Assembly (NCBI GenBank): GCA_017649485.1 | Contig: JAGCGS010000048.1 | Location: 1 to 64,000, forward strand | Direction: 5' to 3' | DNA length: 64,000 nt | DNA from: Bacteroidaceae bacterium | GTDB lineage: Bacteria > Bacteroidota > Bacteroidia > Bacteroidales > Bacteroidaceae | In this document: positions 16,993-40,675 of the stretch, piece by piece | Numbering within the stretch: position 1 is the stretch's first letter | Layout of the letters: every line of letters begins with the position of its first letter | Position numbers and translations under genes: made by a program | Notes under the pieces: generated by a model | What the model was told of the DNA's origin: nothing | The model's database searches: none | Seen by the model: the letters and a program-made list of their open reading frames with translations, nothing else

Positions 16993-17039
16993 AATTACAT
17001 TTTAATTACATTATTTCCCCGATATTATTTTTATATTTG
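16993..17039 (+). promoter_or_regulatory. Boxed promoter of the Cys-rich precursor
   Basis: Repeats AATTACATTTT (16993-17003) and AATTACATTAT (17004-17014), then TATATTTG (17032-17039) 39 bp from the repeat start. One of the clearest members of the set, with both repeats and the -7 element well matched. Confidence 0.75.
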
Positions 17040-17068
17040 TAGTTACTATAGTAAAATAAAAAAGGATT

Positions 17069-17263
17069 ATGAAAAGTTTAAAGGATTTAACAATTGGTGA
17101 GGCTGCTAACATTTTAACAGAAAAGCAGATGAAAGCACTTAAAGGTGGGAATTTGTATTGCCATTGCAATAATGATTCAAGCTCATATCCAACGAGCAGT
17201 TGTGCAAATTGCTATTTATATTGTTATGACTGGTATGTATGCGATGGAGTACATAGGGGGTAA
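17069..17263 (+). CDS. Cys-rich double-glycine-leader peptide precursor
   Basis: 64-residue peptide with an N-terminal leader (GEAANILTEKQMKALKGG) ending in the double glycine, then a 30-odd residue core holding six cysteines (YCHC, SSCANC, LYC, YVC) and several aromatic residues. Unrelated in core to the other precursors. It has its own boxed promoter and is followed 78 bp later by a plug-domain gene, with a small AGGGAT/ATCCCT hairpin between. Likely substrate of the island's modification and export system, or a disulfide-rich bacteriocin. Confidence 0.75.
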   Translation: MKSLKDLTIGEAANILTEKQMKALKGGNLYCHCNNDSSSYPTSSCANCYLYCYDWYVCDGVHRG

Positions 17264-17341
17264 ATAAGCACTCATGAAAAGGGATTAGAACAATATCCCT
17301 ACTTATGTAATTATTTCTAACTACCAGAAATTTTTAATTAT

Positions 17342-18049
17342 ATGGCAAGATTCAAAGTTGCATTGTTTATTATAATTGTTGCATTTAGTCAAATCATTCA
17401 AGCGCAAGACCTGACAGGAACGATTCTGAAAGACGGCAAGCCGCAGAAGAACGTTCAAGTGTGGCTGAAGAACAGGATGGGTGCTGCCAAGACTGACAAA
17501 TACGGGCAATTCGTACTGATGAGGGTGGAACCTACAGATACCATCATGATGGGTGTGAGTAATAAATATGACGCTCAGCTGTTGGTGGGCTCTCACAAAA
17601 ACATCATTGTAAACTTGGAGGAGGATGGCTTCACGGTAGAGAACAAAATTGACGAAGTTACTGTCATTGCGCCTTCTACCAAGAACACATACACCTCTGT
17701 GATTACCCTGAAGAAGATGCAAGTGGTGAATCATGATATGATTATGCGAGAGGGTATCAAGTCGTTATATGATATTATCAGGAGAATTGTGCCTGGAGCA
17801 AAGATTGAGACTGATCCCATGACTTTTGAGAAACACCTTACTATCATCAGAGGGCGCAATTCCATGCGTGCTCCCGAACCTCCATTATTCATCATCGACG
17901 GCATACCATACGATGCTTCGGGTATAGAAGATATTCTACCTGTAGAAGATGTAGCTGAGGTATCTGTGGATCGCGACGGTAGTGGCTATGGCATTCGAGG
18001 TGCCAATGGAGTGGTTATCATCCGAACAATGAGAGGCAGCGACAGGTGA
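17342..18049 (+). CDS. Stand-alone carboxypeptidase-like plus TonB-plug protein 1
   Basis: 235 residues with signal peptide (cleaved near FSQIIQAQ), a carboxypeptidase-like regulatory domain (about 24-95; DGKPQKNVQVWLK) and a TonB-receptor plug domain (about 120-235; IIRGRNSM, PPLFIIDGIPY, VSVDRDGSGYGIRGANGVV). The plug is followed by a stop: there is no outer-membrane barrel and no room for one. It is thus the N-terminal module of a SusC-like receptor encoded alone. A sister gene at 20271 has the same limits, so it is not a chance truncation. Possible decoy, sensor or peptide-binding protein in the periplasm. Confidence 0.85.
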   Translation: MARFKVALFIIIVAFSQIIQAQDLTGTILKDGKPQKNVQVWLKNRMGAAKTDKYGQFVLMRVEPTDTIMMGVSNKYDAQLLVGSHKNIIVNLEEDGFTVENKIDEVTVIAPSTKNTYTSVITLKKMQVVNHDMIMREGIKSLYDIIRRIVPGAKIETDPMTFEKHLTIIRGRNSMRAPEPPLFIIDGIPYDASGIEDILPVEDVAEVSVDRDGSGYGIRGANGVVIIRTMRGSDR

Positions 18050-18054
18050 TACGT

Positions 18055-19413
18055 TCATGTAATTCTTTTTCTTGTGGCTGGCAAAGTAAAGCTGAATGTA
18101 CTGCCTTTGCCCGGCTCACTCTCAACCCATATCTTGCCGCCGTGGGCAAGCACGGCTGACTTGGCACTGGAAAGGCCAACGCCAGAACCTCTCCTTTCAT
18201 AATCTCCTTCCAATGGTATGCGGAAATACAGCTTGAAAATCTTTTTCTGATATTCGGGTGCTATGCCCCATCCATTGTCTTGAACATCAACCGATACACC
18301 TTTCTCTGTTTTATTCAGCCTTATTTCTACCTGCACTCCATGGTCGGCATACTTCAAGCCATTCTCCACCAAATTCCTCATGGCACGTTCTATCATCACA
18401 GCATTGCCCATGATCAGATAACCTTCAGGCAATCCATTCGTGATGACAATGGTATGCTCCTTATCTGCAAATAACATATCACACTCTTCTTTCACTCGCT
18501 GAGTCAGTTTGAAGAGGTTCACTTGCTGCATTTGCAGCTTATATCTCGTCGCATCTTCACTGGTGGCATCCTTCAGTTCCTCCACCTGTTGCAGCACATG
18601 GTTGAACTTATTGTAATTATAATCCATTGCCTCATGCAGCAGCTTGTCATCATTCAAGGCTTTCATGGTTTCAGCGATTGTCATGGCAGTGGTAATCGGA
18701 GTCTTTAAATCATGTACAATGTATCTTGTCGCTTCATCTCGTTGTTTTAGTTCTTCTTCCTTATTGCGTATAACTGTGAGTTGGAATAATACACAGAATA
18801 TAGCCAAAAGCATCAACAGCAAACTCAGCAACAATGATCCTATTTCATCTTTTATAAATACTTCTAAAGGTATCTTGACATCCAATTGAAGGGACTGGAA
18901 CCCCCTCAATCCTAAAGGCTGATACTTAGAATAATTGATACGTGTTATGTGGGAATTCCCGATAGAATCTGTGGCCTGCATCTCTTTGTCGAATAAAGTA
19001 AAACGATGAGGCAACTTTGTGGATATCAAAGCACAGAATAAGCTATCGAGTACTGGCATATCCATCAAATCCTTTAATTGAAAGTGTTTGTCTTCTCTGG
19101 AATGTGTGTAAATATCACCACTAGTTTCGAACACTCCTAATTTCCGATAATCTTCAATATCAATGTCAAGAAATTCAGCACGTGGAATGATTTGGTAGAT
19201 GCTATCCCTTTGTTCCTTAGTAAGTGAAAGCAATAGCCGATTAAAACGAAGTTCTCTTGCCAACATCTCCTCATCTATAGCTATTTTGTAAGCCCTGTCA
19301 ATTTTAAGGGTCATGTCTTGAATAAATTTGCCATAAATACTCGAGATATAGCTGAATTGCAGTAAGATAATGGCTATACCTGCAATGATTGTGATAATTT
19401 TATACTTCTTCAT
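18055..19413 (-). CDS. Sensor histidine kinase (pair 2)
   Basis: 452 residues, the same architecture as the kinase at 2397: helices at about 5-20 and 192-213, a periplasmic sensor of about 170 residues, H-box YIVHDLKTPI (His234), N-box NLVENGLKYA, G1 DNGWGIAP, G2 GSGVGLS. The sensor regions of the two kinases share only motifs (LPHRF, LDS, GLRGFQSL / GLKGLQTL), so they may read related but different signals. Its stop lies 5 bp from that of the convergent plug gene. The regulator gene precedes it by 15 bp. Confidence 0.93.
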   Translation of the reverse strand: MKKYKIITIIAGIAIILLQFSYISSIYGKFIQDMTLKIDRAYKIAIDEEMLARELRFNRLLLSLTKEQRDSIYQIIPRAEFLDIDIEDYRKLGVFETSGDIYTHSREDKHFQLKDLMDMPVLDSLFCALISTKLPHRFTLFDKEMQATDSIGNSHITRINYSKYQPLGLRGFQSLQLDVKIPLEVFIKDEIGSLLLSLLLMLLAIFCVLFQLTVIRNKEEELKQRDEATRYIVHDLKTPITTAMTIAETMKALNDDKLLHEAMDYNYNKFNHVLQQVEELKDATSEDATRYKLQMQQVNLFKLTQRVKEECDMLFADKEHTIVITNGLPEGYLIMGNAVMIERAMRNLVENGLKYADHGVQVEIRLNKTEKGVSVDVQDNGWGIAPEYQKKIFKLYFRIPLEGDYERRGSGVGLSSAKSAVLAHGGKIWVESEPGKGSTFSFTLPATRKRIT

Positions 19414-19428: not shown

Positions 19429-20097
19429 TTATAAAATGGATAATTTGAAACCCACTCTGTTAAGTGTAATAATCTCAATGTTCTTATCATCTTTCAACAA
19501 CTTGTTGATTTTGGCTTTCAAATTGTACAATCCATGCTGATTACCAACCTCATCGCCCCATACATGAAGATTGATTTCATCGAAGGTGATGACTTGGTTG
19601 GGATGCGATGCGATATATGCCAAGAACCTGGTTTCCTGAGGTGTTAAATTGCCAATGACTTGGCTTCCTCTTTTCAACTCATGAGCTTTTACATCCAACA
19701 CATAATCCCCAAAGGAAAGCAACGGAAGGTGGAGTGGTTGATGGGTATCAAACCTGCGAATTGTTTCACGGAGTGTAGCAAAACCGATGGGTTTTTGCAG
19801 AAAAAAATCACCTTTTGATTTGATAGCCCTTGACACATAGCTGTCTTCACTATGACTGGACACAAGCACTATGGGCACGTCCGGGGCTGCCATCTTGATA
19901 TCAGGCAATCTCCTTATGCCATCTGCATCGGGGAATTCAATATCAAGCAGGATCATATCAGGCTTTATCTGTTCCATTTTTTTGGAAATATCTCTTAATG
20001 TATTTAACACCACAACCTCATGTCCCAGTTTCTGTAGCATCACTGAAACAGTTGTACAAAAAGCTTTGTCATCGTCTATAATCAATATCCTGCTCAT
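19429..20097 (-). CDS. OmpR/PhoB-family response regulator (pair 2)
   Basis: 222 residues: receiver domain with DDD at 8-10, phospho-acceptor Asp52 (LLDIEFPDADG) and Lys in FLQKPIG near 102; winged-helix C-terminal domain (LTPQETRFLAYIASH, then EINLHVWGDEVGNQ). Same length and layout as the regulator at 3767. Divergent from the plug gene at 20271, with which it shares an intergenic region holding a clear pair of direct repeats. It is a candidate activator of the boxed promoters and perhaps of itself. Confidence 0.93.
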   Translation of the reverse strand: MSRILIIDDDKAFCTTVSVMLQKLGHEVVVLNTLRDISKKMEQIKPDMILLDIEFPDADGIRRLPDIKMAAPDVPIVLVSSHSEDSYVSRAIKSKGDFFLQKPIGFATLRETIRRFDTHQPLHLPLLSFGDYVLDVKAHELKRGSQVIGNLTPQETRFLAYIASHPNQVITFDEINLHVWGDEVGNQHGLYNLKAKINKLLKDDKNIEIITLNRVGFKLSIL

Positions 20098-20194: not shown

Positions 20195-20240
20195 AATTAC
20201 ATTTTAATTATATTTGGATGCAAAATAATATCTATATTTG
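20195..20240 (+). promoter_or_regulatory. Boxed promoter of plug protein 2
   Basis: Repeats AATTACATTTT (20195-20205) and AATTATATTTG (20206-20216), then TATATTTG (20233-20240), 38 bp from the repeat start. It sits between the divergent regulator gene and the plug gene. Confidence 0.75.
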
Positions 20241-20270: not shown

Positions 20271-20975
20271 ATGAAAAGAGTAAATGTTTTTATACTATTA
20301 GTCATTGCAATGTGTCAAATCATTCAGGCACAAGACTTGACAGGCACGATAATGAAGGACGGCAAGCCTCAGAAGAACGTCAGGGTGTGGTTGAAGCATA
20401 GTCGTGGTGCAGCTAAGACGGACAAGGAAGGAGTGTTTGTATTGAAGAATGTGCTGCCCTCTGATACATTGGTGATGGGTATCAGTACTAAGTATGATGC
20501 TCAATTGGCAATTGGTTCACACAGCAACATCGTTGTCAATCTTGAGGAAGATGGATTCACTGTTGAAGCAGGGCTGGATGAAGTTACTATATCTGCACCT
20601 TCAAGCTTGAGAAAAGAATACACCTCGGTTATTACCCTAAAAAAGATGCAGGTGCTGAATCATGATATGATTATGCGTGAAGGGGTCAAGGATGTTTATG
20701 CTGCTGTTCAGCGTATTGCGCCAGCTGCTCGAATTGAATTAGATTCACAAGGTGGGAGACATTTGATTATTGTTCGAGGCCGCAACTCTTTCCGGGCTCC
20801 AGAACCGCCTCTTTTTATTGTGGATGGTGTTCCTGTAGGAGCAGCTGTGGCGGAAAACACGCTTGCGGTTGAAGATATTGCAGAGTTGTCTGTTGACCGT
20901 GACGGAACCTCCTATGGCTCTCGTGGAGCCAATGGCGTAGTGATTATCCGGACGATGAAAGGTAGTGACAGGTGA
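20271..20975 (+). CDS. Stand-alone carboxypeptidase-like plus TonB-plug protein 2
   Basis: 234 residues, paralogue of the protein at 17342 with the same domain limits: signal peptide ending IIQAQ, regulatory domain with DGKPQKNVRVWLK, plug with IVRGRNSFRAPEPPLFIVDG and a C-terminal GANGVVIIRTMKGSDR that is nearly the same in both. The identical end in two divergent copies shows that the barrel-less form is the real product. Directly controlled by a boxed promoter. Lies next to regulator 2, so the kinase pair is flanked on both sides by plug genes. Confidence 0.85.
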   Translation: MKRVNVFILLVIAMCQIIQAQDLTGTIMKDGKPQKNVRVWLKHSRGAAKTDKEGVFVLKNVLPSDTLVMGISTKYDAQLAIGSHSNIVVNLEEDGFTVEAGLDEVTISAPSSLRKEYTSVITLKKMQVLNHDMIMREGVKDVYAAVQRIAPAARIELDSQGGRHLIIVRGRNSFRAPEPPLFIVDGVPVGAAVAENTLAVEDIAELSVDRDGTSYGSRGANGVVIIRTMKGSDR

Positions 20976-22348: not shown

Positions 22349-23749
22349 CTACAGACTTTGAATGACTTTATCCCAGTCTTCACCCCTGCCTTCCTGACCG
22401 AACACTTTCCTGTACAACCGCATCCTGCCATTACTGATGGCACTGTCGCTACGGCTCAGCAGGATGGCTATGCGAGATGGTTTGAAGCCCATTTTGATGA
22501 GATAACACATCTTCAGCTCATGCTCCTTGATAACGCCAAATGTAGTGAGGCGCGTCTTAAAATCAGGGTAAAGAGAATCGACTAATGCCATCATGGTACT
22601 GGCATCCGCTTCATTCATCGGTTTTTCTGACGCGAGCAAACGCTGGTATATATCTGCTTCACGTATGGCCAAAGTCTTCTTGTCAGTGTCAGGCTGTGGC
22701 GTGGAGGTTTTCAGCCGTTCCTCCTTCAGGTCTGCCTGCAAAGCCTCATTGTATTTCTCCAACAGAGCCTGGTTACGTTGCATACGCATCTTCTCGCTCC
22801 TCATACGGTATAGCAACATAATGGCAATGGCAATAACCAGTATAAGTGTGAGTAATCCAATTACGACTAAGAACTGCATCCGCTGGTTCTTGATGAAAAG
22901 GCTGGCTTTCTCTCGTTCGGTATGCAAGGCCTGATACAAGGCTCCCACATTGCCCGATGCTTCAAAGCGGGCTTCCATCTCCCTGTCCTTCTCCACGTCT
23001 CTTTGCAGCTCAAACAGGCTTGATAATAGGTTGTAATCCCGCTGCCTGATGGCTTGCTGCACTTTCTTGTTAATGGCATATTGTCGATAGGATGGCACTC
23101 CGCTTTCCATCAACCGGTCAAGGAACTGATTAACCGAGTCACTCCCGTTGCTTTTTTGTTCATATATGTGGGCCATCACGTAATTATACAGATGACCGTC
23201 GTCTTCACTGAGCTGGTCAAGCCTCTTTGGAAGCTGATCTTGCCCCTTATCTGTATTGCCTGTTTCGCAATAGGCTGCTGCCTTGCGCAGGGCAACTGCA
23301 TTCTGTGCCTTCACGTCTTTCTGCTTCACGGCAAGCTGTCCAGCCTGATTCAGGCACCTCATGGCTTCCTGAAAGTTGCTCAGACTGCGATAAGCATCGC
23401 CCATCCCCATGTAAGCATCAATCATGGCGAGCGTATCAGGCAAGCTGGTGGCGCATTGCAGCGCAAGTTCGTATCTGCCAATGGCTTCCTGGTACAGCTG
23501 CTGCTTTGCCATGAGTCTGCCCATCTCGTTGAATAAAGTTGCCTTACGACTGAGTGAAGCCTGATTGTCTGGCAGGACATCTATGGCACGTTGATAATAA
23601 AGCACGGCACGCAGGGCTGGATATTCATCTAAGCTCTGCCGTCCAACGGCATAGAGGCTATCAGACTCAGCCAGAGCCTCGCCTATTGCCTTCTGTCCAT
23701 AGCAAGAGGAGAGGCATATTGCCATCAGTACAGCTATAATCTTTCTCAT
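22349..23749 (-). CDS. TPR lipoprotein/membrane protein with C-terminal HTH
   Basis: 467 residues from the start at 23749, which gives a signal peptide ending in lipobox LSSC. Several TPR-like helical repeats follow (about 40-250), then one membrane helix (about 295-320; VVIGLLTLILVIAIAIMLLY), a coiled coil, and a cytoplasmic C-terminal helix-turn-helix of LuxR-like type (MGFKPSRIAILLSRSDSAIS). This TPR-TM-coiled coil-HTH layout is common in Bacteroidales and is thought to be regulatory, but I know no defined target. A promoter fits at 23869-23898. It stands between the propeller and the efflux genes. Confidence 0.78.
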   Translation of the reverse strand: MRKIIAVLMAICLSSCYGQKAIGEALAESDSLYAVGRQSLDEYPALRAVLYYQRAIDVLPDNQASLSRKATLFNEMGRLMAKQQLYQEAIGRYELALQCATSLPDTLAMIDAYMGMGDAYRSLSNFQEAMRCLNQAGQLAVKQKDVKAQNAVALRKAAAYCETGNTDKGQDQLPKRLDQLSEDDGHLYNYVMAHIYEQKSNGSDSVNQFLDRLMESGVPSYRQYAINKKVQQAIRQRDYNLLSSLFELQRDVEKDREMEARFEASGNVGALYQALHTEREKASLFIKNQRMQFLVVIGLLTLILVIAIAIMLLYRMRSEKMRMQRNQALLEKYNEALQADLKEERLKTSTPQPDTDKKTLAIREADIYQRLLASEKPMNEADASTMMALVDSLYPDFKTRLTTFGVIKEHELKMCYLIKMGFKPSRIAILLSRSDSAISNGRMRLYRKVFGQEGRGEDWDKVIQSL

Positions 23750-23868
23750 ATATAACGACAGTATCATTTTGGAAGAATAGAAGATATTACCATCACCCAT
23801 AGCAGGCAATATACGCTCAAACATAGCTATTAATTATAGAGGTTCAACTTGTGTTTTTCCTTTAAAAT

Positions 23869-23950: not shown

Positions 23951-26900
23951 CTATTTTAAGGTACGCCTCACCACGAAAGCTGGCAGGAAGCAGAAGATGG
24001 CGATGACGGACATGACCAAGCCACCGATGGTGCCTGCTGCCAAAGGGAACCAGAAGGCTTCGTGAGCCGTACCTACCATGAAGGGGATGAAGCCCAGGAT
24101 GGTGCTGACCACGGTGAGGAAGATGGGGATAACCTTGGCATTCCACGCCTTGACGTATGCACGGGCAGAAGAGAGGAGAGGATAACGCTTACGGATGTTG
24201 TTATACTCGTTGATGATATAGATGCTGGCATTGACGGTGATGCCGCAAAGCAGCACGAAAGAGGCAAAGCCTCCCTGGTCGAAATTGAGGTGGAACCAAT
24301 AGAATGTCAGGAAAACACCGATATAACTCACTGGGATGACGAAGATGATGGCTAAGGGCTGCTTCCAGGAGTTAAAGAGTATGCCAGTGACAAAGAAGAT
24401 GATGGCAACCACCACCAAGAGCAGCAGATACTGACGATTGTCCTTCTTTGACCAACTGCCGTAATAATCCACCGCCTCGACCGTATAGCCCATCGGCAAC
24501 ATAGGAGCAAAGGCTTTCAGCTCATTCTCCTGTACTCGCTTGCCCATCTCTGCTGCTCCCACATACTCATATTGCAGGCACAGCCTGTATTGCTGGTTTT
24601 CCTTCACTACCCGCTGGGGCTGCTGTCCTTTTTCTACAGAGGCAAGGTTGGAGAGTTTGGAGAATATACTCCCCCGCCCTTCGGGCACCCCCTCTACTTT
24701 AGAGGGGGAGGTAGAGGAAGCAGAGGCACCTGACGGGTTTAAAGGGAAGTTTTGCATCGCCCAGATATCGTATTCCTGCGACTGCAGGGAAGTGAGCTTG
24801 ATGCGCTCCGTGCCATCAGGAGTTGATACAGAGCCCACTGCCAAATCACGTCCAAAGACGGGACGGAGGGTGGAGAAAAGTTGCGAGGGAGTGACTCCTG
24901 CATTCATCATCTGCTCGCTATCAAGGTGGATATAATACTCCTGATAATCATCTTTCCAGAACGAGAACTCGCTGGTAATCGCCACCTCCTGAATACGTCG
25001 ATGCTCTAAGAGCTTAGTTTTCAACTTCTCTGCCCAACTGTATAACTCATCATAGTTATAGCCATACATACGGATTTGATAGGAGCCTGCCGTCTCACGC
25101 ACATCATTGCTGAAGCCCTGATCTGCCAGTCCGTAGATACTCCAGCTGCCCCCACCCAGCTGCAGGGCTTGGGTAGTCATGCGACTCTTGAGCAGATAGG
25201 GGAAACCTGTATGAGCGTATTCGTCCTTGAAATAGATGCTGATGCTGGCACGGTTGGCATTGTAGATGGTGGTTTGGAACTGCTTGATTTCATCGAAGTC
25301 ACTGAGGAACACTTCCATCCGCTGAATGAGGGTGTTCATCTGGTCGAGGGTACTGCCATTGGGCAAGTTGGCATTGGCATAAAGAATTACCTCATCGTTT
25401 CGGGTGAAGTAGCTGCCGTTATAGACTTTATTGATGAAGATATAGAGACCATAGGCAAAAGCTGCTATGAGCAGGAGGCAGACTGCCCAGCGGAAGCGGG
25501 CGAGGTAGCGAACTGCGACTTCGTAAATACGGGAGAAGACTAATTGACCTTTCTTCTTTTTGAAAACAGATGCACGAACTTCCATTTTCAGCATCTTAAT
25601 TAAAGCTGGCACGAAGAAGAGTGCAACGAGCAGGGAAACTGCCAAATTAATGATGACTACCGCTGCAAAGTCCTGCAGGTTCAGGCGGATGTTGTCATTT
25701 AGGAAGAAGATGATGACCAAGGCGCCCATGGTGGTGAGGGCGGCAGCTAAGACCGACAGGAACGCCTTGAGGTTATGGCGATGCATATAGTGGTCAGCCA
25801 TAACAATGGTACTGTCGATTACCAAGTTCAGGGAGATGGTGATGCCAGCTAATGAATACAGCTGTATCTCTAATCCTGCCAAATAATAGAAAATGAGTGC
25901 CACTGCGATATTGACTGACAATGAAACGGTAATCAAGAGCAGGTATTTCAGCCGTCGGCTGATGAGCCAAACAAACACCAACAGGATGAGAACTGTCAGT
26001 GCTGAGCGGTAATAAATCTTGTCCAGCTCCTTGCGGATATATTCTGTAGCATCATAGCCTGCATGTACCTCATAGCCCTGGGGTAGTTGTTGTATTATCC
26101 CTGCCATAACTGCCTTGATAGACTTATTGAGTTCCAACTGGTTGACCGACTCATTGGCAGTGATAGTCAGGTAGATGGAATTTAAGCCGTTGATGCGGTA
26201 GTAGCTTTGCGGAGCAGCTTCCACATGAATCGCCTTCACCAACTGGTCTAAGTGTATCAGTTTGCCGTCTGAAGCCTTCACCACAATGTCAGCCGGATTG
26301 AAAACAGTCTCATCCTGTTCTGGCGCCACCGTCAGGCGAATCCACTCCTGGCTGCCTTGAGCATCCATGTTGTGGGTACCCAAAAACACCCTTTGTGAAT
26401 GATGCTGAATAGCAGCAGTAATATCATCTATTGTCACCCCGAGGCTCTGCAACTGACGACTGTCGTACTGCAATTGCCACTCCATGGGTGTGGCACCAGA
26501 GAGGGTGATGCGATAGACACCATCAAGCTGGGCTAATCGTGGACTGATGTTCTCTTCTGCGTACCGTTGTATCTCAATAGGTGCTACTGAGGCATTGAGC
26601 GTATAAACCATAAATGGCCGTTCATTTTCTTCGTCTGGCACTTGCATGGTGATGACGGGATAGCTCATACCATCAGGCAACTGGGGCCAAGTCTGGCGGA
26701 TAATGGTAGAGGCCTCGAAGCGCGCGGCATCAATGTCAACATGCTTGTCGAGCTCAACCTTGATGCTGCCAGAGCCGTTATCGGATGTGGATCCTATCTT
26801 CTTTACACCTTTGATACGTGCCAGCATAGACTCCAGCCTGCTTGTCACCTCCATCTCTACCACTCTTGAAGAGCTGTTAGGAACGGTATATGACACCGTG

Positions 26901-27019
26901 AAGCCTGGCAGGGTACGCGAGGGGTTGAGCTTGACAGGAAGCAAAGGCAGCATCGCCAGTCCCACCAAAGCGAGACAGACGAACGAGACTATCACAGAAA
27001 AAGAAGAAATCCTATTCAT
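23951..27019 (-). CDS. RND efflux permease (second of operon)
   Basis: 1022-residue inner-membrane proton-driven efflux pump of the AcrB/CusA superfamily: helix 1 at about 8-28, two large periplasmic domains, and helices 2-6 and 8-12. In helix 4 the motif is LNLVIDSTIVMADH, with one aspartate where AcrB has a DD pair. A low-complexity stretch at about residues 760-785 (GASASSTSP, KVEGVPEGRG) is encoded by an intergenic-type palindromic repeat (24660-24740) and interrupts the second periplasmic domain. It is the last gene of the operon starting at 33147 and probably pairs with, or replaces, the RND protein at 28863. Confidence 0.9.
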   Translation of the reverse strand: MNRISSFSVIVSFVCLALVGLAMLPLLPVKLNPSRTLPGFTVSYTVPNSSSRVVEMEVTSRLESMLARIKGVKKIGSTSDNGSGSIKVELDKHVDIDAARFEASTIIRQTWPQLPDGMSYPVITMQVPDEENERPFMVYTLNASVAPIEIQRYAEENISPRLAQLDGVYRITLSGATPMEWQLQYDSRQLQSLGVTIDDITAAIQHHSQRVFLGTHNMDAQGSQEWIRLTVAPEQDETVFNPADIVVKASDGKLIHLDQLVKAIHVEAAPQSYYRINGLNSIYLTITANESVNQLELNKSIKAVMAGIIQQLPQGYEVHAGYDATEYIRKELDKIYYRSALTVLILLVFVWLISRRLKYLLLITVSLSVNIAVALIFYYLAGLEIQLYSLAGITISLNLVIDSTIVMADHYMHRHNLKAFLSVLAAALTTMGALVIIFFLNDNIRLNLQDFAAVVIINLAVSLLVALFFVPALIKMLKMEVRASVFKKKKGQLVFSRIYEVAVRYLARFRWAVCLLLIAAFAYGLYIFINKVYNGSYFTRNDEVILYANANLPNGSTLDQMNTLIQRMEVFLSDFDEIKQFQTTIYNANRASISIYFKDEYAHTGFPYLLKSRMTTQALQLGGGSWSIYGLADQGFSNDVRETAGSYQIRMYGYNYDELYSWAEKLKTKLLEHRRIQEVAITSEFSFWKDDYQEYYIHLDSEQMMNAGVTPSQLFSTLRPVFGRDLAVGSVSTPDGTERIKLTSLQSQEYDIWAMQNFPLNPSGASASSTSPSKVEGVPEGRGSIFSKLSNLASVEKGQQPQRVVKENQQYRLCLQYEYVGAAEMGKRVQENELKAFAPMLPMGYTVEAVDYYGSWSKKDNRQYLLLLVVVAIIFFVTGILFNSWKQPLAIIFVIPVSYIGVFLTFYWFHLNFDQGGFASFVLLCGITVNASIYIINEYNNIRKRYPLLSSARAYVKAWNAKVIPIFLTVVSTILGFIPFMVGTAHEAFWFPLAAGTIGGLVMSVIAIFCFLPAFVVRRTLK
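24660..24740. repeat. Palindromic repeat inserted in the RND coding sequence
   Basis: CCCGCCCTTCGGGC, then CCCCCTCTACTTTAGAGGGGG, written here as arms CCCCCTCT / AGAGGGGG. This GC-rich hairpin pair is typical of intergenic repeats of Bacteroidetes, yet here it is in frame inside a gene. Confidence 0.55.
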
Positions 27020-27210: not shown

Positions 27211-28764
27211 TCACTGCCAGTCAAACTTATTGGAGAGGGAGAAGCCTGTGGCAAAATCATGAAGCGTAAGTTTCCTGATCTTGTAGTAATTCTGCCAATA
27301 GCTCTGGAGGGCAGAGATATAGTTGCGCTGTGCCTCCTGCTGACGGTTCAGCGATAGCGTCAGGCTATTGATGTCTGCCCTGCCTATGATAAAGCGTTGA
27401 CGGGTTTCGTTATAAGCCAGGATAGACAGGTCGAGTGCCTCCTCCGCACTCGCCACCAGATCCTGTTGCATATTGAAGTCGCTCACCGCCATAATCACCT
27501 CCTCCTCAATGGAAATCTCACTCTGGCGTGCCGAAGTCTGTACCACATTCAGGTTATTCTTCGCCATGTTATACTTACCCTTACGCACACCCCAGTCAAT
27601 CAAGGGGATGGAGACGCTCACACTCACCAGTTCCTGCTGCATGGGATGACTGTAGGCATCACGCAGGTTCTCAGCCACCTGGTTGAAACCCACACTGGCA
27701 GTCATACTGGCATTGAAGCGAGACTCCTGACGGGTGCGATCCACATTCTGCTCAGCTTCCAACACATTCTGCCGTAAGCCCAAGAAATTGGGATTGTTGG
27801 CATGGGCAGCAGCAATGGCATCATCCACAGCCACCTCCATCCTTTGCGGCTTACCCGGCAACTCCACCCTTATCTCCATCTCCTTATCCATATTCAGGAA
27901 GGTGGCAAGAGAATACATGGCCCGTTTCAGGGCACTTTGCTTGTTCTTCAGCGTATTCTGGGCATTCACCCTGTCTAAACGCAAGGTCAATAAATCGGCA
28001 TTGCTGATGGCTGCAATCTTGAATCGTTGCATACCTATTTCGTAAAGTGTGTCTGTGTTCTGCACATTCTCCTGTGCCAAATCGTATTCTGCCTGTGCCA
28101 TAGCGAGGGCGAAGAAATGCTCCGTAGCCTGCTCTGATACCTGCTCGGCATTGTACAGGTATTCCTTCTTGGCTTTCTCATATTTCAGCGGCTCTATCTT
28201 GCGCTCCCACCGGAAGGCATTGTAGCCTATCAGGCTCTGGGAATAGCCGATGCGCAAGGGCACTGTGGTGAACTGGGTGTATTTATTATGCCCGAAGCTG
28301 CGCATATAACCCAGGTCGGTATCCACACTGAAGGTACCGCCCGTAAGGTCGAAATTCTGTTGCAACGAGAGCTGGCCATAAGAATAGAATGACTGCTGAC
28401 TGCGATAGACATCGATATCCTGACCAGAGTCATATCGGCGGGTGATGTCGCGATAATACTGAGCCGGCGTTAGGTTCAGCGTCAACGATGGCAAACGGTT
28501 GGCACGGTAGGTCCTATATTCCCAATAGCTTGCCAGATACATGTTCTTGGTACGGAATGCCTCCAAGGAGCTATCGTTGGCAAGGGTGATGGTTTGCTGC
28601 AAACTCAGCGTTAATGACCGTTGACCGTTAACAAGTGACGATTGACCATTGACTATTGACAATTGACAATTGAGTACATTGAGCATGATGAACAATGCCA
28701 GGCGTAGCATGGCAAATCTGGAAAGATGCATAGGTTTTATAGTGTCTATAGCTGTCATAATCAT
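27211..28764 (-). CDS. TolC-like outer-membrane efflux protein
   Basis: 517 residues, outer-membrane factor of the TolC family: two repeats of long helices (for example SEQATEHFFALAMAQAEYDL and the second set around 430-480) with short barrel strands. It would form the exit duct for the RND pumps of this operon. The N-terminus is odd: between the signal-like MLRLALFIMLNV and the mature start (LSLQQTITLANDSS) lie about 25 residues with seven-residue periodicity (SIVNGQS, SLVNGQR), encoded by a 7-bp repeat array. Several ATGs are possible; the first is used here. Confidence 0.9.
   Translation of the reverse strand: MIMTAIDTIKPMHLSRFAMLRLALFIMLNVLNCQLSIVNGQSSLVNGQRSLTLSLQQTITLANDSSLEAFRTKNMYLASYWEYRTYRANRLPSLTLNLTPAQYYRDITRRYDSGQDIDVYRSQQSFYSYGQLSLQQNFDLTGGTFSVDTDLGYMRSFGHNKYTQFTTVPLRIGYSQSLIGYNAFRWERKIEPLKYEKAKKEYLYNAEQVSEQATEHFFALAMAQAEYDLAQENVQNTDTLYEIGMQRFKIAAISNADLLTLRLDRVNAQNTLKNKQSALKRAMYSLATFLNMDKEMEIRVELPGKPQRMEVAVDDAIAAAHANNPNFLGLRQNVLEAEQNVDRTRQESRFNASMTASVGFNQVAENLRDAYSHPMQQELVSVSVSIPLIDWGVRKGKYNMAKNNLNVVQTSARQSEISIEEEVIMAVSDFNMQQDLVASAEEALDLSILAYNETRQRFIIGRADINSLTLSLNRQQEAQRNYISALQSYWQNYYKIRKLTLHDFATGFSLSNKFDWQ
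28616..28676. repeat. 7-bp repeat array inside the TolC-like gene
   Basis: Tandem heptamers of the type GACAATT / GACCATT / GACTATT. As 7 and 3 share no factor, the array codes a seven-residue repeat (NGQ-containing) in whichever frame it is read. Its length is a multiple that keeps the gene open. Confidence 0.75.
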
Positions 28765-28779: not shown

Positions 28780-28870
28780 TAATGTTCAATAGTCAATAGT
28801 CAATGGTCAATGTTCAATCTTCAATCTTCAATCTTCAATCTTCAATCTTCAATGGTCAATCTTCAATCTT
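28780..28870. repeat. Heptamer array between RND and TolC-like genes
   Basis: Runs of TCAATCT, with variants TCAATAG and TCAATGG, about a dozen units. The array reaches into the last codon of the RND gene (its stop codon is within a TCAATCT unit). Such arrays can change length by slippage. Confidence 0.75.
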
Positions 28871-31800
28871 TATAAATCCTCCAGTATGCTAATGGAATAA
28901 TAAACAAACTCACTAAAGTCCCCACCACCATAGCTCCTATCATAGCTATGGCAAGGGGTTTCTGAAGCTCTGAGCCCATGTCGAAGCTGAAAAGCAGGGG
29001 CAACATAGCAAAGATGGTGGTGAGTGAGGTCATGATGATGGATCGTAACCTGCGCCGCCCTGCCTCATGGATGGCCTCCAATAACGGCATCCCCTTCTTG
29101 CGCAGCTCGTTAATCACATCAATCTTCAGGATGGAGTCGTTGATGATGATACCGCAAGTAACGATGATACCAATAGCAGACATCAAATTCAGGGTATGGC
29201 CACAAACCCACAGTAGCACCAAAGCAGCAGCCACATCAATGGGTATCTCCAACAAGACAATCAGCGGCTGCACGAAACTCTCAAACTGAGATGCCAGAAT
29301 GAAATACATCAGCATAATGGATATCAGCAAGATAACCACCATCTCGCCCATCATCTCACGATTATCATAGATACTGCCACTGAACGATACATCCCAATGA
29401 CCAGCCTCATCAGCCACCTGATGTGATACGTTCTCCAAAGGTCGTTCATCAGCAACATCAAAGAATCTGAAAGGAATATATTCACCATTCCTTCCTGCCG
29501 TGATGGTTTTGAGATCCTCCGACGGCTCTAACTTCACGAGGCTATTCAGCGGGATATAATTGATGTCATCGGTCTTTACCAAGGTATTTGCCAGCACCTC
29601 ACTCACTGTCTGCTCGTGCGACACAATACTGACGGGCATGTTCTGCTGATTGGCATGCAGCACAGCCACACTGTTTTCCTTGAATGCTGTCCTCAGCACC
29701 CTGATTACCTCATCATAGCTGACATGATAAAGCTGAAGCAACTCCTGCGAAATATGTATGTTCAACTGGTTCTCAAACGCCAAACCTTCAGGAGTCAGGC
29801 CAGAGAGTGAAGTCATACGCTCATGCAAGCCCCTCACCTCATCCGGACGCGGAGCCATAGCCTTATTGCGCGCATAGAACTCAGCCGTGAAGGGTGCTTC
29901 TCCTGTGTCAAACAGTTTCTCGAATAAGGTCTCTGGTGGGTAGAAGGTAACCACAGCAGAAGGGTAATTTCGTTGTATCCAAGATGCTATCTGCTTCTGC
30001 AAAGGAGCAATATCTTTTGTTTCCTCCGTCTTGAAATACAGTTCTGCCTCAGTGACAGACAAGGCTTCGCCCCTGTCTAACAAATAGTCTTGCTGGCCAA
30101 TGGCAGCTGTCTGCTCAATGGATGAAGCTTTAGTTTGGGCAAAGAGCGCATCCACACGAGAGCGGTTCTCATCCAAATGGATATGCTCATTCCAATCCAC
30201 CCTCACCATCAGCTCTCGCTGGTCTATCTCCGGCATCCGCTCTATGTGGATGACATTGAACATCAAAACGCAGAGGGGCAAGGTCAACAAGGTAGCAACC
30301 GAGCAAAGCAACTTATGAGAGAAGACCCAACTGATGCCGGCATCGTACCAACGTTTGACCATTAAACGTTGACCATTGAGCTTCGCTCCTATTTCGTCGC
30401 GACTCGGCATAGCTGATGCAAGCATCGCTCTGCCCTCGCTGCTCCGAAAAGTGACCGTTGATTGTTGACCATCGATTGTTGACCGTCGACCGTTGAGAAT
30501 CCGGTAAACCAAATAATATAGAACAGGCAAAAGCATGATGCCCGTAAAGTATGAGACCAGCAAGCCCACGCTTACCGCAAAAGCCTGATCGTAGAACAAA
30601 GCCCCTGCAATGCCGCTCATAAATATAAGAGGTACAAACACGGCTATTGTGGTGAGGGAAGAACTGAGCATAGGGGTAATCACCTCTGTAGTACCTGCCA
30701 CACAAGCCTCCGACAGATCATGCCCCTTTTCCCTGTATTGCGAGATATTCTCCGTTACGATGATGCTACTGTCAATCATCATACCCAAGGCCAGAATCAA
30801 ACCTGAGATGGAGATAATGTTGAGCGACATATTAAAGAGGTAGAAAAACACGAAGCAGGTGATGATACTCACCACCATGCTCACGCCGATTATCAGGGGT
30901 GAGCGCACATCGCCCAAGAAGAACACTGCCACGATGAAGATAAAGACGAAACCCAGCAGTAGGTTCTGTTGCAGATTAGAGATGGTATAGTCCAGCAGCT
31001 CTGTCTGGTTCCTGCTCACCTGAAAGTTTATATGCGGATAGGTAACTCTGAAAGTATCTATTACCTCATTCACAACCTCCTTCATGTTGTCCATATTCTC
31101 ATCCGCCTGTTTGATAACAGCCAGGGTAACAGCCTGCTTACCATCAGCTTCGCTCATGCCTACAGCTTTCACAGAAGCCTGCTCCACTTCACAAAAATCG
31201 CCCATCCGCAAAAACCTATTACCCTTGTTGAGCAGGATATTCTTAACATCATCAGCTGTACGCAACAGGGTATTGAAGCGGATATTATATTCATAGTGTC
31301 CATCCCGCACAGTCATACTGCCAGGAGTCACATTATTCATTGTCAGAGCATTCTCCAGGTCGCTGACGGTCAACCCCATTGATGCCATCTTTGCCTCATC
31401 TGGGATTATCTGCAACTGCTGTTGCACAGTTCCGGTTATATCCACCATAGCCACCTCCGGCAATTGCTCTATCCTGCGCTTGATAATGCCTTCTGCCACC
31501 TCTGACAGTTCCAAGAAGCCAGCATCTGTTGTCAGATTGAGGTAAAACACAGGGATGTCTGTCGCGCTGGCCTTGATAACCTTTGGCCTGTCAATATCCT
31601 TGGGCAGGAAATTCATCGAAGCGTCAATCTTCTCATTTACTTCAATAAATGCCAGGTCAGTGTTGGTGCCATACTCGAATCCCAAACGGATAATACCACT
31701 TCCATCTCGGGTGCGACACTCCAGCGTCTTCAGTTTCGACACCTGCATGAGCTGCTGCCTTATCTGCCTCATCACCGTATTTTCCAGTTCACGGGCGGAG

Positions 31801-31955
31801 GTGTTCTGGGCAGTCACCTGCACGGTAATCTCAGGAATGGCTATGTCGGGCAACAGTGATACCGGCAAGGTGAAATAGGTCACCAAGCCGATGATGCAGC
31901 AGGCAGTAAATGCCATCAGCACCGCAATAGGTCTATTTATCAGGAACTTTACCAC
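28863..31955 (-). CDS. RND efflux permease (first of operon)
   Basis: 1030 residues, AcrB/HAE-like permease: helix 1 at about 10-30, two periplasmic porter/docking domains, helix 4 with GMMIDSSIIVTEN (one Asp, against DD in AcrB) and helices 8-12 ending near 1025. Between helices 6 and 7, in the cytoplasmic loop at about 490-535, there are some 45 extra residues (NGRRSTIDGQQSTV, then FRSSEGRAMLASAMPSRDE) encoded by a heptamer array and a dispersed repeat that also occurs in the intergenic region at 31990-32070. The frame is kept, so the pump probably tolerates it. Follows the fusion-protein gene by about 120 bp. Confidence 0.92.
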   Translation of the reverse strand: MVKFLINRPIAVLMAFTACCIIGLVTYFTLPVSLLPDIAIPEITVQVTAQNTSARELENTVMRQIRQQLMQVSKLKTLECRTRDGSGIIRLGFEYGTNTDLAFIEVNEKIDASMNFLPKDIDRPKVIKASATDIPVFYLNLTTDAGFLELSEVAEGIIKRRIEQLPEVAMVDITGTVQQQLQIIPDEAKMASMGLTVSDLENALTMNNVTPGSMTVRDGHYEYNIRFNTLLRTADDVKNILLNKGNRFLRMGDFCEVEQASVKAVGMSEADGKQAVTLAVIKQADENMDNMKEVVNEVIDTFRVTYPHINFQVSRNQTELLDYTISNLQQNLLLGFVFIFIVAVFFLGDVRSPLIIGVSMVVSIITCFVFFYLFNMSLNIISISGLILALGMMIDSSIIVTENISQYREKGHDLSEACVAGTTEVITPMLSSSLTTIAVFVPLIFMSGIAGALFYDQAFAVSVGLLVSYFTGIMLLPVLYYLVYRILNGRRSTIDGQQSTVTFRSSEGRAMLASAMPSRDEIGAKLNGQRLMVKRWYDAGISWVFSHKLLCSVATLLTLPLCVLMFNVIHIERMPEIDQRELMVRVDWNEHIHLDENRSRVDALFAQTKASSIEQTAAIGQQDYLLDRGEALSVTEAELYFKTEETKDIAPLQKQIASWIQRNYPSAVVTFYPPETLFEKLFDTGEAPFTAEFYARNKAMAPRPDEVRGLHERMTSLSGLTPEGLAFENQLNIHISQELLQLYHVSYDEVIRVLRTAFKENSVAVLHANQQNMPVSIVSHEQTVSEVLANTLVKTDDINYIPLNSLVKLEPSEDLKTITAGRNGEYIPFRFFDVADERPLENVSHQVADEAGHWDVSFSGSIYDNREMMGEMVVILLISIMLMYFILASQFESFVQPLIVLLEIPIDVAAALVLLWVCGHTLNLMSAIGIIVTCGIIINDSILKIDVINELRKKGMPLLEAIHEAGRRRLRSIIMTSLTTIFAMLPLLFSFDMGSELQKPLAIAMIGAMVVGTLVSLFIIPLAYWRIYKD
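30360..30505. repeat. Mobile repeat plus heptamers within the RND gene
   Basis: A unit of about 65 bp (30393-30456, containing CGACTCGGCATAGCTGATGC) is flanked by heptamer repeats of the type TTGACCA/TTGACCG. The same unit occurs at 32002-32066. It contains the short palindrome GATGC-AA-GCATC. Confidence 0.8.
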
Positions 31956-32073: not shown

Positions 32074-33147
32074 TTATTCATTTCTTCCGACTTTTACTTT
32101 TGATTCGTGTGCCAGGTTCACATTGCCAGTCACTATCACCTTATCGCCCTCCTTCAGCCCTTCCAAGATAGAGAAAGAGTCGGCATTCTCCAAACCAGTC
32201 TGCACATAATTCCACATGGCCTGGTCGCCTTGCAGGGTGAACACCACCTGCCTGCCCTGCCTCAGCACCACCGCACTCTTCGGCACCACAAGCTGATCAG
32301 GCATCTCACGCCTCACACTCACCTTGATGTTCATGCCGCTGAACAGCCTGTCGGTTCCCCTCACCTGTGCCTTTACCTGAACCATACCATTAGCATCCAC
32401 TATCGGATTGATTTCTGTGACAGTTCCCTCATGTGTAGCTGCCATATCAGCGTATGGAGCCACCACCACCTTATCGCCCCGATGAATCACTGCAAGCTCA
32501 TTCTCAAGCACACTGAAGGTGGCCTCCATCCCTTGTGAGCCTATGATGGTGCACACGGCATCAGAAGGGGTCACCCTGTTGAAACGCTTCACGTTGAGGT
32601 TGGCTATCGTTCCGGTAAAAGGAGCTTTCAATGAGGCATTTGCCTCGTTTGTCAAAGCCAGTTCGTAGGCTGACTGTGCCTGGCTATATCCGCTTCGGGT
32701 CTTTGCCAGTTGCATGATGTCTGCTGGTATCTCAGCCTCTGCCTTGTTGCCATAGCCTTGCCCTATCAGCACATCCTGCAAGTCGAGTTTTGCCTGCTCA
32801 AAGGTGTTCTTCGCCTGCTCCACCGCATTGTGCAACTTAAACTTGTCAAGTTCGGCAATCACCTGTCCTTGTGCCACATGGTCGCCATTCTTCACCTTCA
32901 CAGCCTCAATCACGCCTTCTGTCTCGAAATGCACATCCGTCAGCTGCATGGCCTCCACCTTTCCATTGCTCACCAGCTCATGCTCAAAAGCCTGTCGCTT
33001 CAGGGTAATGGTAGTCACCTCATTCGGTTCAGCCTGCTCCAAAGCGTTCACTCCTTCGCCGGAAGTATCAGCGTTATTTGCCTGACCGCTACAAGCTAAG
33101 CACAAGCCTGCCATCAGCCATAGTCCTATCCTTGACCTTGATTTCAT
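32074..33147 (-). CDS. RND efflux membrane fusion protein
   Basis: 357-residue periplasmic adaptor, lipid-anchored: signal peptide with lipobox CLAC at residues 16-19. Lipoyl half at about 65-100 (VEAVKVKNGDHVAQGQVIAE), alpha hairpin to about 165, second lipoyl half (LKAPFTGTIANLNVK), beta barrel and membrane-proximal domain (VVPKSAVVLRQGRQVVF). It links the RND permeases downstream to the TolC-like duct. First gene of the efflux operon, preceded by the boxed promoter, so efflux is put under the same inferred control as the peptide genes. Its first codons and promoter are duplicated at 40560-40675. Confidence 0.92.
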   Translation of the reverse strand: MKSRSRIGLWLMAGLCLACSGQANNADTSGEGVNALEQAEPNEVTTITLKRQAFEHELVSNGKVEAMQLTDVHFETEGVIEAVKVKNGDHVAQGQVIAELDKFKLHNAVEQAKNTFEQAKLDLQDVLIGQGYGNKAEAEIPADIMQLAKTRSGYSQAQSAYELALTNEANASLKAPFTGTIANLNVKRFNRVTPSDAVCTIIGSQGMEATFSVLENELAVIHRGDKVVVAPYADMAATHEGTVTEINPIVDANGMVQVKAQVRGTDRLFSGMNIKVSVRREMPDQLVVPKSAVVLRQGRQVVFTLQGDQAMWNYVQTGLENADSFSILEGLKEGDKVIVTGNVNLAHESKVKVGRNE

Positions 33148-33170: not shown

Positions 33171-33217
33171 CAAATATACCCACATCGCCTCACAGGAAAT
33201 ATAATTGAAATATAATT
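33171..33217 (-). promoter_or_regulatory. Boxed promoter of the efflux operon
   Basis: On the minus strand AATTATATTTC (33207-33217) and again AATTATATTTC (33196-33206): two exact 11-bp repeats. TATATTTG (33171-33178) follows, 39 bp from the repeat start. The best example of the motif. Confidence 0.8.
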
Positions 33218-38308: not shown

Positions 38309-38320
38309 ATTCGTTATCAT

Positions 38321-39331: not shown

Positions 39332-39402
39332 TTCAAAGTGTTTTATTAACACAAACTATTCTGAAAAGCAGAAGTTTTCCAGAACAGCTTGTAAGAAGAT
39401 TG

Positions 39403-39630
39403 TTATTGATTCTGATTCTTTGACCTCCTTGAGACAACAGGAAGTTCTGGGTCGGTACAATCCCATCCCATCTCAGGGCAAGGCTTTACATAATTAATAT
39501 CATCAGCCAATGCCTCCACATTAGCCTTTGTCAAATCATTAACACTCACATCGCTCTTGTCAGAGCCAATCATACTGTAGCCAGCTGAGATAGCAGCTAC
39601 GAGGGCTACGCTCATTAATACTTTTCTCAT
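39403..39630 (-). CDS. NVEAL peptide 5
   Basis: 75 residues: signal MRKVLMSVALVAAISAGYSM, then SDVSVNDLTKANVEALADDI, and a variable end with PCPEMGWDC (C-x6-C, one shorter than in the others) and a basic end SRRSKNQNQ. The first NVEAL gene of the transcript, 12 bp after propeller 5; its partner should be propeller 4. Confidence 0.87.
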   Translation of the reverse strand: MRKVLMSVALVAAISAGYSMIGSDKSDVSVNDLTKANVEALADDINYVKPCPEMGWDCTDPELPVVSRRSKNQNQ

Positions 39631-39642
39631 AATACAAGAATT

Positions 39643-40605
39643 TTAAAGTTTGTATTCAAGTATGCAACCTTCGGGGTCATTACCGATACCATAAAGGATG
39701 CCTTTTTCTTCATCAACGCCAAATGTAACTAAAGGCTTCTCTAAATAGTAGCTTTTTAACAGTTCACCTTTCCAGTTGAAGACTAACAAACATGTATTTG
39801 ATTGGTGACCTTTCAGTAAATCTCCCATGGTGGCTTTCTCATATAAACAATAAAGATACTTGTCTCCTGCAAAGATATCGCCAAATCCGATGGGACTATC
39901 TATTGTTGCAGCAACAGATTGCTGTGAAACCACAAATATAGGTTCATCATACATTTTAAAAGAAACCTTCTTTACATCATTGGGAGAGCAATCATAAATA
40001 GCCAACGCACAACCGTTTGTTGTTGACAGAGCCATGTGCTTCGCATCTGGACTCATGGCAATATTCGTATTCATCAACAAGGCAGATTTTTCATGGTCAG
40101 TGAGTTCTATGATAGACTCTATCTCAGGATATGGAATAATAAATTCATGCCCATCACTTGAAGTGTATTTTGCCCAACAACCAGAAAAATACCCGGAAAC
40201 AGCAATGGCAGTATTTTGGGATGAAGCAAATATTACTCTTTCTCCTTCTCTTGACAAATCAGTCTTATTAGATATATAAAGGGAGTCCCCTCGTTTTGAG
40301 ACAGAATATGATGCCTGCTTCATCGCATCATTATAGATAATGTATAGCCCATCTTTCCTTTCTATTAATTGGGGCTTCAAAATGCCGTATTCTTCAACAT
40401 CTATTCGATTGGATACTTTTAGAGAGAAGTGAGGACATGACAAAAAGCCTTCCTCCGAAGAACTCGAAGACTTTCCGCCATTATTACAAGCCGCAAATAA
40501 TAGTGCAACTACTATAATTGCCCATCTTCTATTGCATTGGAGGTAGATATACCGGCTGCACATGCCTGCTATAAACCATAGTCCTATCCCTATCCTTGAT
40601 TTCAT
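39643..40605 (-). CDS. Array propeller lipoprotein 5, chimeric N-terminus
   Basis: 320 residues and first gene of the array. Residues 1-15 (MKSRIGIGLWFIAGM) come from the efflux fusion protein (MKSRSRIGLWLMAGL) together with its promoter; from about residue 26 (RRWAIIVVALLFAACNNGG) the protein has its own hydrophobic segment and lipobox FAAC. The fused signal region is thus about 20 residues too long, with a possible competing hydrophobic stretch. The rest is a propeller of the subtype of propeller 3. No other start is seen, so the original one seems lost and the array now depends on the borrowed expression signals. Confidence 0.8.
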   Translation of the reverse strand: MKSRIGIGLWFIAGMCSRYIYLQCNRRWAIIVVALLFAACNNGGKSSSSSEEGFLSCPHFSLKVSNRIDVEEYGILKPQLIERKDGLYIIYNDAMKQASYSVSKRGDSLYISNKTDLSREGERVIFASSQNTAIAVSGYFSGCWAKYTSSDGHEFIIPYPEIESIIELTDHEKSALLMNTNIAMSPDAKHMALSTTNGCALAIYDCSPNDVKKVSFKMYDEPIFVVSQQSVAATIDSPIGFGDIFAGDKYLYCLYEKATMGDLLKGHQSNTCLLVFNWKGELLKSYYLEKPLVTFGVDEEKGILYGIGNDPEGCILEYKL

Positions 40606-40628
40606 ACCTTATTCTTTATATTGAGCTT

Positions 40629-40675
40629 TAAATATACCCACATCGCCTCACAGGAAATATAATTGAAATATAATT
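40629..40675 (-). promoter_or_regulatory. Boxed promoter of the NVEAL-propeller array
   Basis: On the minus strand AATTATATTTC twice (40665-40675, 40654-40664), then TATATTTA (40629-40636) 39 bp from the repeat start. The repeats are unchanged from the copy at 33171; the -7 element has lost its final G. Confidence 0.7.

Follow-up and report, generated by a model that had tools for sequence, protein, structure and literature searches.

Do the peptide precursor, propeller lipoprotein, plug protein and efflux genes gathered in one stretch of a Bacteroidaceae genome answer to a common switch? The stretch, called the window hereafter, spans positions 1 to 64,000 of contig JAGCGS010000048.1 (assembly GCA_017649485.1), and its initial annotation had proposed that seven promoters share two 11-bp direct repeats, 'the box', and form a candidate OmpR-type regulon. 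We found the box to be a conserved element of a coherent gene set. It is likely to be the operator of an OmpR/PhoB-type response regulator, the two regulators of the window, RR1 and RR2, being the candidates that would bind it and activate the genes behind it. Genomes, contigs and loci are labelled G, C and L, respectively.

All seven reported boxes were found in the window, on the expected strands and with 38 or 39 bp between the start of the box and that of the -7 element (coordinates in Table 1). The box is composed of two 11-bp direct repeats (AATTAYATTTY-RATTATATTT) followed by a Bacteroides-type -7 element; the consensus of the main sigma factor in Bacteroides is TAnnTTTG, with TTTG at -33 (PMC7366714). 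With 38/39 bp to the predicted core promoter, the box would lie over the -33/-35 region, a placement that would fit class II activation. An eighth site, at 8757 (+), had been overlooked. The 53 bp from 8757 are identical to those preceding the genes of a C39-ABC exporter and an HlyD protein in G029 (L083:15319), and a similar site precedes a plug gene in G006 (L088:2689). In the window this promoter is orphaned, as an ATPase gene on the opposite strand (8835-9977) comes next. Taken alone, the 4560 and 10259 boxes are weak, whereas the other six of the eight are strong. Both have five mismatches to the consensus and were not recovered in the box search at ≤3 mismatches, and with a matrix built without their own genome they score 14.7, close to the best shuffled-window score (14.5, full matrix). 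They are backed by G029, which has stronger sites at a similar locus. As initially described, two sites are copies of others: 4560 and 10259 are in a 300-nt repeat (96% identical), and 33217 and 40675 in a 246-nt repeat (88% identical). Eight sites with two duplicated pairs therefore make six independent cases, not five.

The motif was not found to be equally frequent at random promoters when the repeats and the -7 run were scanned together in the same genome, the genus and the family, the first two with reversed controls. The genome is a draft (2,615,097 bases in 69 contigs, 82.6% complete), and some sites could therefore be missing. At ≤3 mismatches, box+N18+TANNTTTG gave four matches in it, all in the window, and none in the reversed control; the N17 spacing added two matches, both inside the window. 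Over 158 genomes of the genus, both spacings together yielded 22 distinct sites, 20 of which belong to G000, G029, G006, G013 and G137, all carrying the same response-regulator clade; most of these precede orthologues of genes that have a box in the window. The reversed control had one match per spacing, in G108. In a draw of 399 family genomes that excluded G006, G013, G029, G027, G118 and G137, a single 3-mismatch match, in G430, was detected beyond the genome under study. All these genomes are drafts and related, so their counts are not independent. Scores with the full matrix are 25.8-43.7 at the eight sites, whereas no other position in the window exceeds 11.5 and ten shuffled windows reach 14.5 at best.

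Boxes in G029, G006 and G013 precede counterparts of the boxed genes of the window. Those of G029 are found ahead of a gene unit for a lipoprotein, an NVEAL peptide, a propeller protein and an S26 peptidase (L084:6250), upstream of the membrane fusion protein (MFP) gene of a resistance-nodulation-division (RND) pump (L085:5384), at a contig end where the downstream open reading frame (ORF) starts like an RND MFP (L084:9324), upstream of precursor loci for ribosomally synthesized and post-translationally modified peptides (RiPPs; L083:1976 and 6277) and at two plug genes. G006 has boxes at plug (C12, C14) and RND MFP genes and at the gene of a propeller lipoprotein (C19) 60% identical to that encoded at 425-1516, and G013 at RND MFP, two plug and one TPR-HTH genes. 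G006 also harbours a boxed gene for a 404-aa lipoprotein with sub-cut-off thioredoxin matches beside its RND operon (L087:5294-6508), which no ORF of the window matches.

Six RND MFP genes at 81-86% identity, from this genome and four others, were collected; five are boxed and the sixth begins at a contig end. The box of G137 (31.5) was found where predicted and is absent from the training set of the matrix. None of the 25 MFP loci examined at ≤61% identity has a box plus -7 element, one scoring 17.0 without a -7. Similarly, among 15 plug matches at ≥61%, 11 have the box directly upstream, one (17342) follows a boxed precursor gene, two come second after another plug gene that has the box, and one starts at a contig end. 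Nothing above 14.5 was found for the plug loci at ≤55% (15) and the fragment locus L162, with 11 upstream stretches. There are several plug paralogues per genome, and only the closer ones have the box. In an alignment of the six RND promoters anchored on the box, identity reaches 86% within the box and 79% at the -7 element but falls to 36% between them, 27-31% on the upstream side and 42% on the downstream side; for eleven plug promoters and the precursor-plug unit at 16993, it is 78% in the box and 29-40% elsewhere. With the box conserved and its flanks near random, it is therefore the element that is kept and not the surrounding DNA.

The window codes for two OmpR/PhoB-type regulators, each divergent from a boxed promoter as first reported, and this arrangement recurs in related genomes. 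The RR1 gene, starting at 4435, is divergent from the weak 4560 box, and that of RR2, starting at 20097, from the 20195 box. The two proteins are 35% identical, and their receiver and Trans_reg_C domains all score above the gathering thresholds. Residues D8, D9, D51 and K101 are invariant across eight aligned clade members; we take them to be the acidic triad, including the phospho-acceptor Asp, and the Lys of the receiver active site. The clade profile aligns over its full length to OmpR/PhoB-type structures. RR1 was searched against 157 genus genomes (one of the 158 was not among them) and RR2 against 27 genomes. G029 has an RR1 orthologue (61%) and G006 an RR2 orthologue (61%), both likewise divergent from a box. 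A third type, RR3, is present in G013, G027, G118 and G137, and G029 carries a copy interrupted by an in-frame stop. RR1, RR2 and RR3 form a single clade (support 0.94) in a tree of eight clade members and 16 other regulators, from which the G029 RR3, L069, L067, L098, L074, L100, L101, L031 and L032 were left out. All eight intact clade members of the tree are divergent from a box, the weak 4560 box in the case of RR1. L019 (metagenome-assembled genome RGIG4876, JAFUVZ010000051.1) and C12 of G006, both of 40013 bp and with the same regulator, were counted once. The RR3-adjacent boxes read TATTACAATTRGATTATATTT at 38 bp in G118, G027 and G029 and are variable in G013 and G137, with one at 39 bp. 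In G029, the RR3 gene split by the in-frame stop (L095:8089-8754) has retained its divergent box and plug gene. We considered whether the base at box position 11 distinguishes RR1 from RR2 (C in 5/6 non-RR3 sites of G029, T in 4/5 of G006) and rejected such a code, Fisher's test giving only 0.08.

We then collected 20 more distant operons in which the kinase gene comes first, 17 from the genus and three from another genus of the family, with 28.7 kb of upstream DNA. The matrix, trained on none of them, scores 15.3-23.9 upstream of 12, always with the -7 at exactly 39 bp; a typical diverged box is GATTATGTTTT-TATTATAAAC. In 20 shuffles of the 28.7 kb, three had one match at ≥13 (best 16.9). The 12 boxed operons are not all independent, as G086/G113, G104/G147 and G233/G216 look closely related. 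A matrix-free pattern, ATTA-N7-ATTA with a TTTG-type -7 permitted at 37-40 bp, matched nine times, each at 39 bp, compared with a mean of 0.1 over 200 shuffles and none in 40 control loci (154 kb). Seven of these nine begin 58-134 bp from the divergent kinase gene, those of G104 and G147 not being directly adjacent. We therefore rejected the notion that the box is absent from more distant members of this regulator family.

These features are consistent with the following model. Two winged-helix domains of the regulator would bind head to tail on the two AT-rich repeats, the box spanning approximately -50 to -29 on the assumption that the -7 element has its centre close to -7. The downstream repeat would cover -33, and the bound regulator would bring in the main RNA polymerase at the -7 element, which begins 38-39 bp from the start of the box. 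The activating form would be the phosphorylated regulator, RR1 and RR2 each being paired with its own membrane histidine kinase, with a putative division of labour between them. Ancestrally, the unit may have consisted of a kinase gene, its regulator gene and one divergent gene with a box; in the RR1 line and in several distant relatives this last gene codes for a Trp-rich (W-rich) double-Gly peptide, and in the lines of RR2 and RR3 for a plug protein. In the present lineage, the regulon would join a radical-SAM RiPP locus with its precursors, C39 exporter and HlyD protein, the propeller lipoproteins, the NVEAL operon and the RND pump. The OmpR-type regulon first proposed thus stands as regards the shared element, and its control by RR1 and RR2 is a prediction from sequence.

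Several observations weigh against this model. The recognition helix of RR2 differs from those of RR1 and RR3 at several places, and nearby boxes are alike. The only boxes found in G027 and G118, at plug genes, have four mismatches, and eight of the 20 distant operons have no box at ≥13. Good box matches without a -7 element occur at C33 and C41 of the genome under study, L013 (G001) and L018 (G013). The lone genus matches of G119 and G121, genomes without the regulator clade, score 26.1 and 30.1 and are unlike promoters, one having no ORF ≥60 aa at the box and the other lying inside an ORF; these strays show that the matrix alone cannot prove a single site. Box matches were counted in 5/7 clade-bearing and 2/151 other genomes (Fisher 5.6e-7), but the seven probably share ancestry, so this count lacks independent events. 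Finally, matches to a membrane protein with tetratricopeptide repeats, a transmembrane segment and a C-terminal helix-turn-helix-like region (TPR-TM-HTH), at E 1e-40 or better, were obtained in exactly the seven clade-bearing genomes of the 157 searched. As a separate observation, at C33 and C41 (L005 and L009, similar loci), the box without a -7 is 41 bp before an ORF with a response-regulator-like start.

The TPR-TM-HTH protein encoded at 22349-23824, or a paralogue, is the likeliest candidate if another DNA-binding protein binds the box, in which case the two-component genes would be mere targets. A gene of this family is found close to boxed genes in the window as well as in G013 and G118. 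Nevertheless, 12 of 20 matches examined included only two boxed genes (G029, 24.0; G013, 26.5) and nine with nothing at ≥11; the window gene itself has but a weak trace (11.5 at 23917, minus strand), and no library recognises a DNA-binding domain in the protein. Moreover, diverged boxes are present at the operons of nine genus genomes without a reported TPR-TM-HTH match at that E-value (G086, G113, G104, G136, G147, G095, G082, G019 and G058). The diverged boxes at 12 of 20 distant operons therefore weaken this alternative, which we regard as unlikely, and strengthen the response regulator as the binder of the box.

Even less probable is that the box is not an operator but part of a distinct type of promoter recognised by an alternative sigma factor. 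The fixed distance to the -7 and the coverage of the -33 region would fit, but the -7 corresponds to the TAnnTTTG of the main sigma factor (PMC7366714), a tandem repeat of period 11 is no -33 element, and no sigma factor appeared among the Pfam matches of 20 scanned window proteins. A further alternative is that duplication of a single promoter along with its segment, or random matching in AT-rich DNA, accounts for the boxes. Two of the eight are clear copies, and AT-rich patterns do match randomly: the box alone proved too weak as evidence, with 12 matches at ≤3 mismatches in the genome compared with five in its reversed control, and a related 19-bp pattern has 75 exact matches in viral contigs. 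Yet none of those 75 has TAnnTTTG or TTTG at 38/39 bp, whereas TAnnTTTG is found there in 4/6 box-only matches outside the genome. Seven of the 12 matches are on C56, six of them being the sites themselves and one (10476) lacking a -7, and none of the remaining five has a -7 at 38/39 bp. Together with the near-random flanks of the six RND and twelve plug-unit promoters (27-42%, for boxes at 86% and 78%), the lack of a -7 at the viral matches makes copying or chance extremely improbable.

The W-rich precursor of the initial annotation corresponds to the 44-aa peptide encoded at 4642-4776, which has a double-Gly leader and the core KWVWDEETHSWVWVEE. A counterpart is encoded downstream of the G029 box at L083:1976. 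In G086, G113, G058 and G216, the last from another genus of the family, the first ORF past the diverged box likewise codes for a short double-Gly peptide whose acidic core is rich in W; that of G019 is W-rich without a double Gly. At the other boxed operons, the first gene past the box codes for a SusC-like N-terminus (G233), a 268-aa protein (G136 and G082) or a 189-aa ORF (G315), and G104, G147 and G095 have still other first genes. An NCBIfam scan limited to the W-rich peptides of G086 and G216 gave TIGR04149 at 16.0 bits (cut-off 25) for the former and no family for the latter. Small double-Gly ORFs number 16 in the 28.7 kb upstream of the distant operons versus 12 in the 154 kb of control loci. 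Some, with varied cores, are found at L277:660-905, L281:653-874 and L267:648-860 and as second ORFs of L264 and L263.

As W-rich peptides are found behind boxes, we raise, tentatively, the possibility of a peptide-signalling circuit of Bacteroidota, in which a short double-Gly peptide with a WVWxExxxWxW-type acidic core would be exported and sensed by the kinase, the regulator then switching on the peptide gene. In this lineage, the regulator might also drive the synthesis of RiPPs, their export, and the genes for propeller lipoproteins, NVEAL peptides and the RND pump, and the plug proteins that replace the peptide in the RR2 and RR3 lines could be periplasmic partners of the signal or the kinase. 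The two paralogous circuits present here might run diverging sub-regulons (position 11 being C near RR1 and T near RR2, at p = 0.08 only). In Gram-positive peptide-pheromone circuits, the genes of a double-Gly peptide, a sensor kinase and a regulator are also adjacent, and the peptide promoter has direct repeats. The likeness is in gene arrangement alone, as we are dealing with another phylum, an OmpR-type regulator and a W-rich acidic peptide.

The closest parallel to the box is the PHO box of Escherichia coli and relatives, which is placed over the -35 region and, similarly, is made of direct repeats of 11-nt period recognised by a winged-helix two-component regulator. PhoB domains are bound head to tail on its two 11-nt repeats (PMC4415409). 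In contrast, the core CTGTCAT is absent from the 28 sites, the -7 element is of the Bacteroidota type, and genes for RiPPs, export and the envelope, rather than for phosphate scavenging, were observed as targets. By analogy, the box would work like a PHO box, yet its genes do not constitute the Pho regulon. Among NCBIfam names, RprXY, an OmpR-type regulator of Bacteroides and Porphyromonas, fits RR1 best, but the scores (RR1, 101.4 bits; RR2, 82.7) are below the NF051850 cut-off of 370 bits. Riemerella anatipestifer is a member of the same phylum. Its two-component regulator PhoPR has a genome-wide binding motif whose most conserved nucleotides are TTTAACA, and its targets differ (PMC9603813). 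The locus also resembles the Bacteroidales radical SAM RiPP clusters BGC3-5, which harbour radical SAM, pseudo-radical SAM and LanC-like proteins and double-Gly precursors (PMC10352776). BGC5 includes a kinase and a response regulator, and regulation was proposed from gene content; the section on these clusters describes no operator or regulon (PMC10352776).

In literature searches, mostly without subscription papers, nothing paired NVEAL with Bacteroides or mentioned NVEALA. This regulon was not found in titles or abstract starts, among the matches listed, on OmpR-type direct-repeat operators in Bacteroides, nor in those on two-component control of Bacteroidales RiPPs or bacteriocins, on TIGR04149 or on propellers with a peptide maturase. 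The type of switch is familiar, and, in the literature searched, the genes apparently controlled seem to be undescribed; one of them codes for a tiny tryptophan-rich peptide that could be a signal. The box would provide a usable operator with two candidate regulators for NVEAL peptides, propeller lipoproteins, double-Gly RiPPs and barrel-less plug proteins, four families with no described regulon in the literature searched, which it would tie into one programme. Furthermore, the divergent unit of kinase-regulator pair, box and W-rich peptide, present in two genera of gut Bacteroidaceae, allows peptide signalling to be tested directly in the phylum.

Table 1. Boxed promoters and other features of the 64-kb window. 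Distances run from the start of the box to the start of the -7 element.
Feature	Position	Strand	-7 element and distance	Remarks
6-bladed propeller lipoprotein (DUF4934/DUF5128)	425..1516	-		Domain scan
Boxed promoter	1562..1607	-	TATATTTG at 38	Precedes propeller lipoprotein (ATG at 1516)
Histidine kinase HK1	2397..3770	-		41% identical to HK2
Response regulator RR1 (receiver + Trans_reg_C)	3767..4435	-
Weak boxed promoter	4560..4606	+	CTTCTTTG at 39	Divergent from RR1; stronger counterpart G029 L083:1976
44-aa W-rich double-Gly peptide	4642..4776	+		First ORF past 4560 box; copy 10341-10475
TIGR04149 radical SAM-modified RiPP precursor	4814..5020	+		54.5 bits, cut-off 25
Second TIGR04149 RiPP precursor	6501..6713	+		54.2 bits, cut-off 25
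Boxed promoter, eighth	8757..8803	+	TAACTTTG at 39	Own gene displaced here
Copy of 4560 promoter	10259..10305	+	CTTCTTTG at 39	Before W-rich peptide copy and MacB-like permease
Radical SAM maturase-like ORF	13286..14425	+		TIGR04148 294.3 bits, cut-off 300
C39-peptidase ABC exporter remnant	14344..15960	+		Residues 209-747 of 748; match excludes C39 domain
HlyD-type membrane fusion protein	15978..16940	+
Boxed promoter	16993..17039	+	TATATTTG at 39	Ahead of genes 17069 (precursor) and 17342 (plug protein)
Cys-rich double-Gly precursor (TIGR04149)	17069..17263	+		27.5 bits, cut-off 25
Barrel-less TonB-receptor plug protein	17342..18049	+
Histidine kinase HK2	18055..19413	-
Response regulator RR2	19429..20097	-
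Boxed promoter	20195..20240	+	TATATTTG at 38	Perfect consensus; divergent from RR2
Second plug protein	20271..20975	+
TPR - TM - C-terminal HTH-like membrane protein	22349..23824	-		TM and HTH judged by eye
RND operon	MFP 32074-33147, then 28863-31955, 27211-28764, 23951-27019	-		Behind 33217 box
Boxed promoter	33171..33217	-	at 39	Before RND genes; one of six footprinted promoters
Boxed promoter	40629..40675	-	TATATTTA at 39	TolB-like propeller / NVEAL array; 246-nt copy of 33217 region

The window holds a radical SAM RiPP system of the TIGR04149/TIGR04148 type, with precursors over the cut-off and a maturase marginally under it; the ORF at 13028 is also below the TIGR04149 cut-off (22.4 vs 25 bits). 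The maturase-like ORF aligns to residues 21-378 of a 494-aa G029 maturase, which itself scores 493.8 bits to TIGR04148. Family scans identified a TIGR04150 pseudo-radical SAM protein, a LanC-like protein and NVEALA peptides (PF14055) among the predicted targets of the lineage. The plug proteins have no barrel and are similar to the N-terminal part of SusC, with carboxypeptidase-regulatory-like and plug domains.

Judging from its gene fragments, the peptide locus looks rearranged or decaying, unless the draft is misjoined. The radical SAM ORF (13286) runs into the exporter remnant (to 15966), whose match omits the peptidase domain, and leftover fragments of 42 aa each correspond to a glycosyltransferase (8591) and a maturase (6360).

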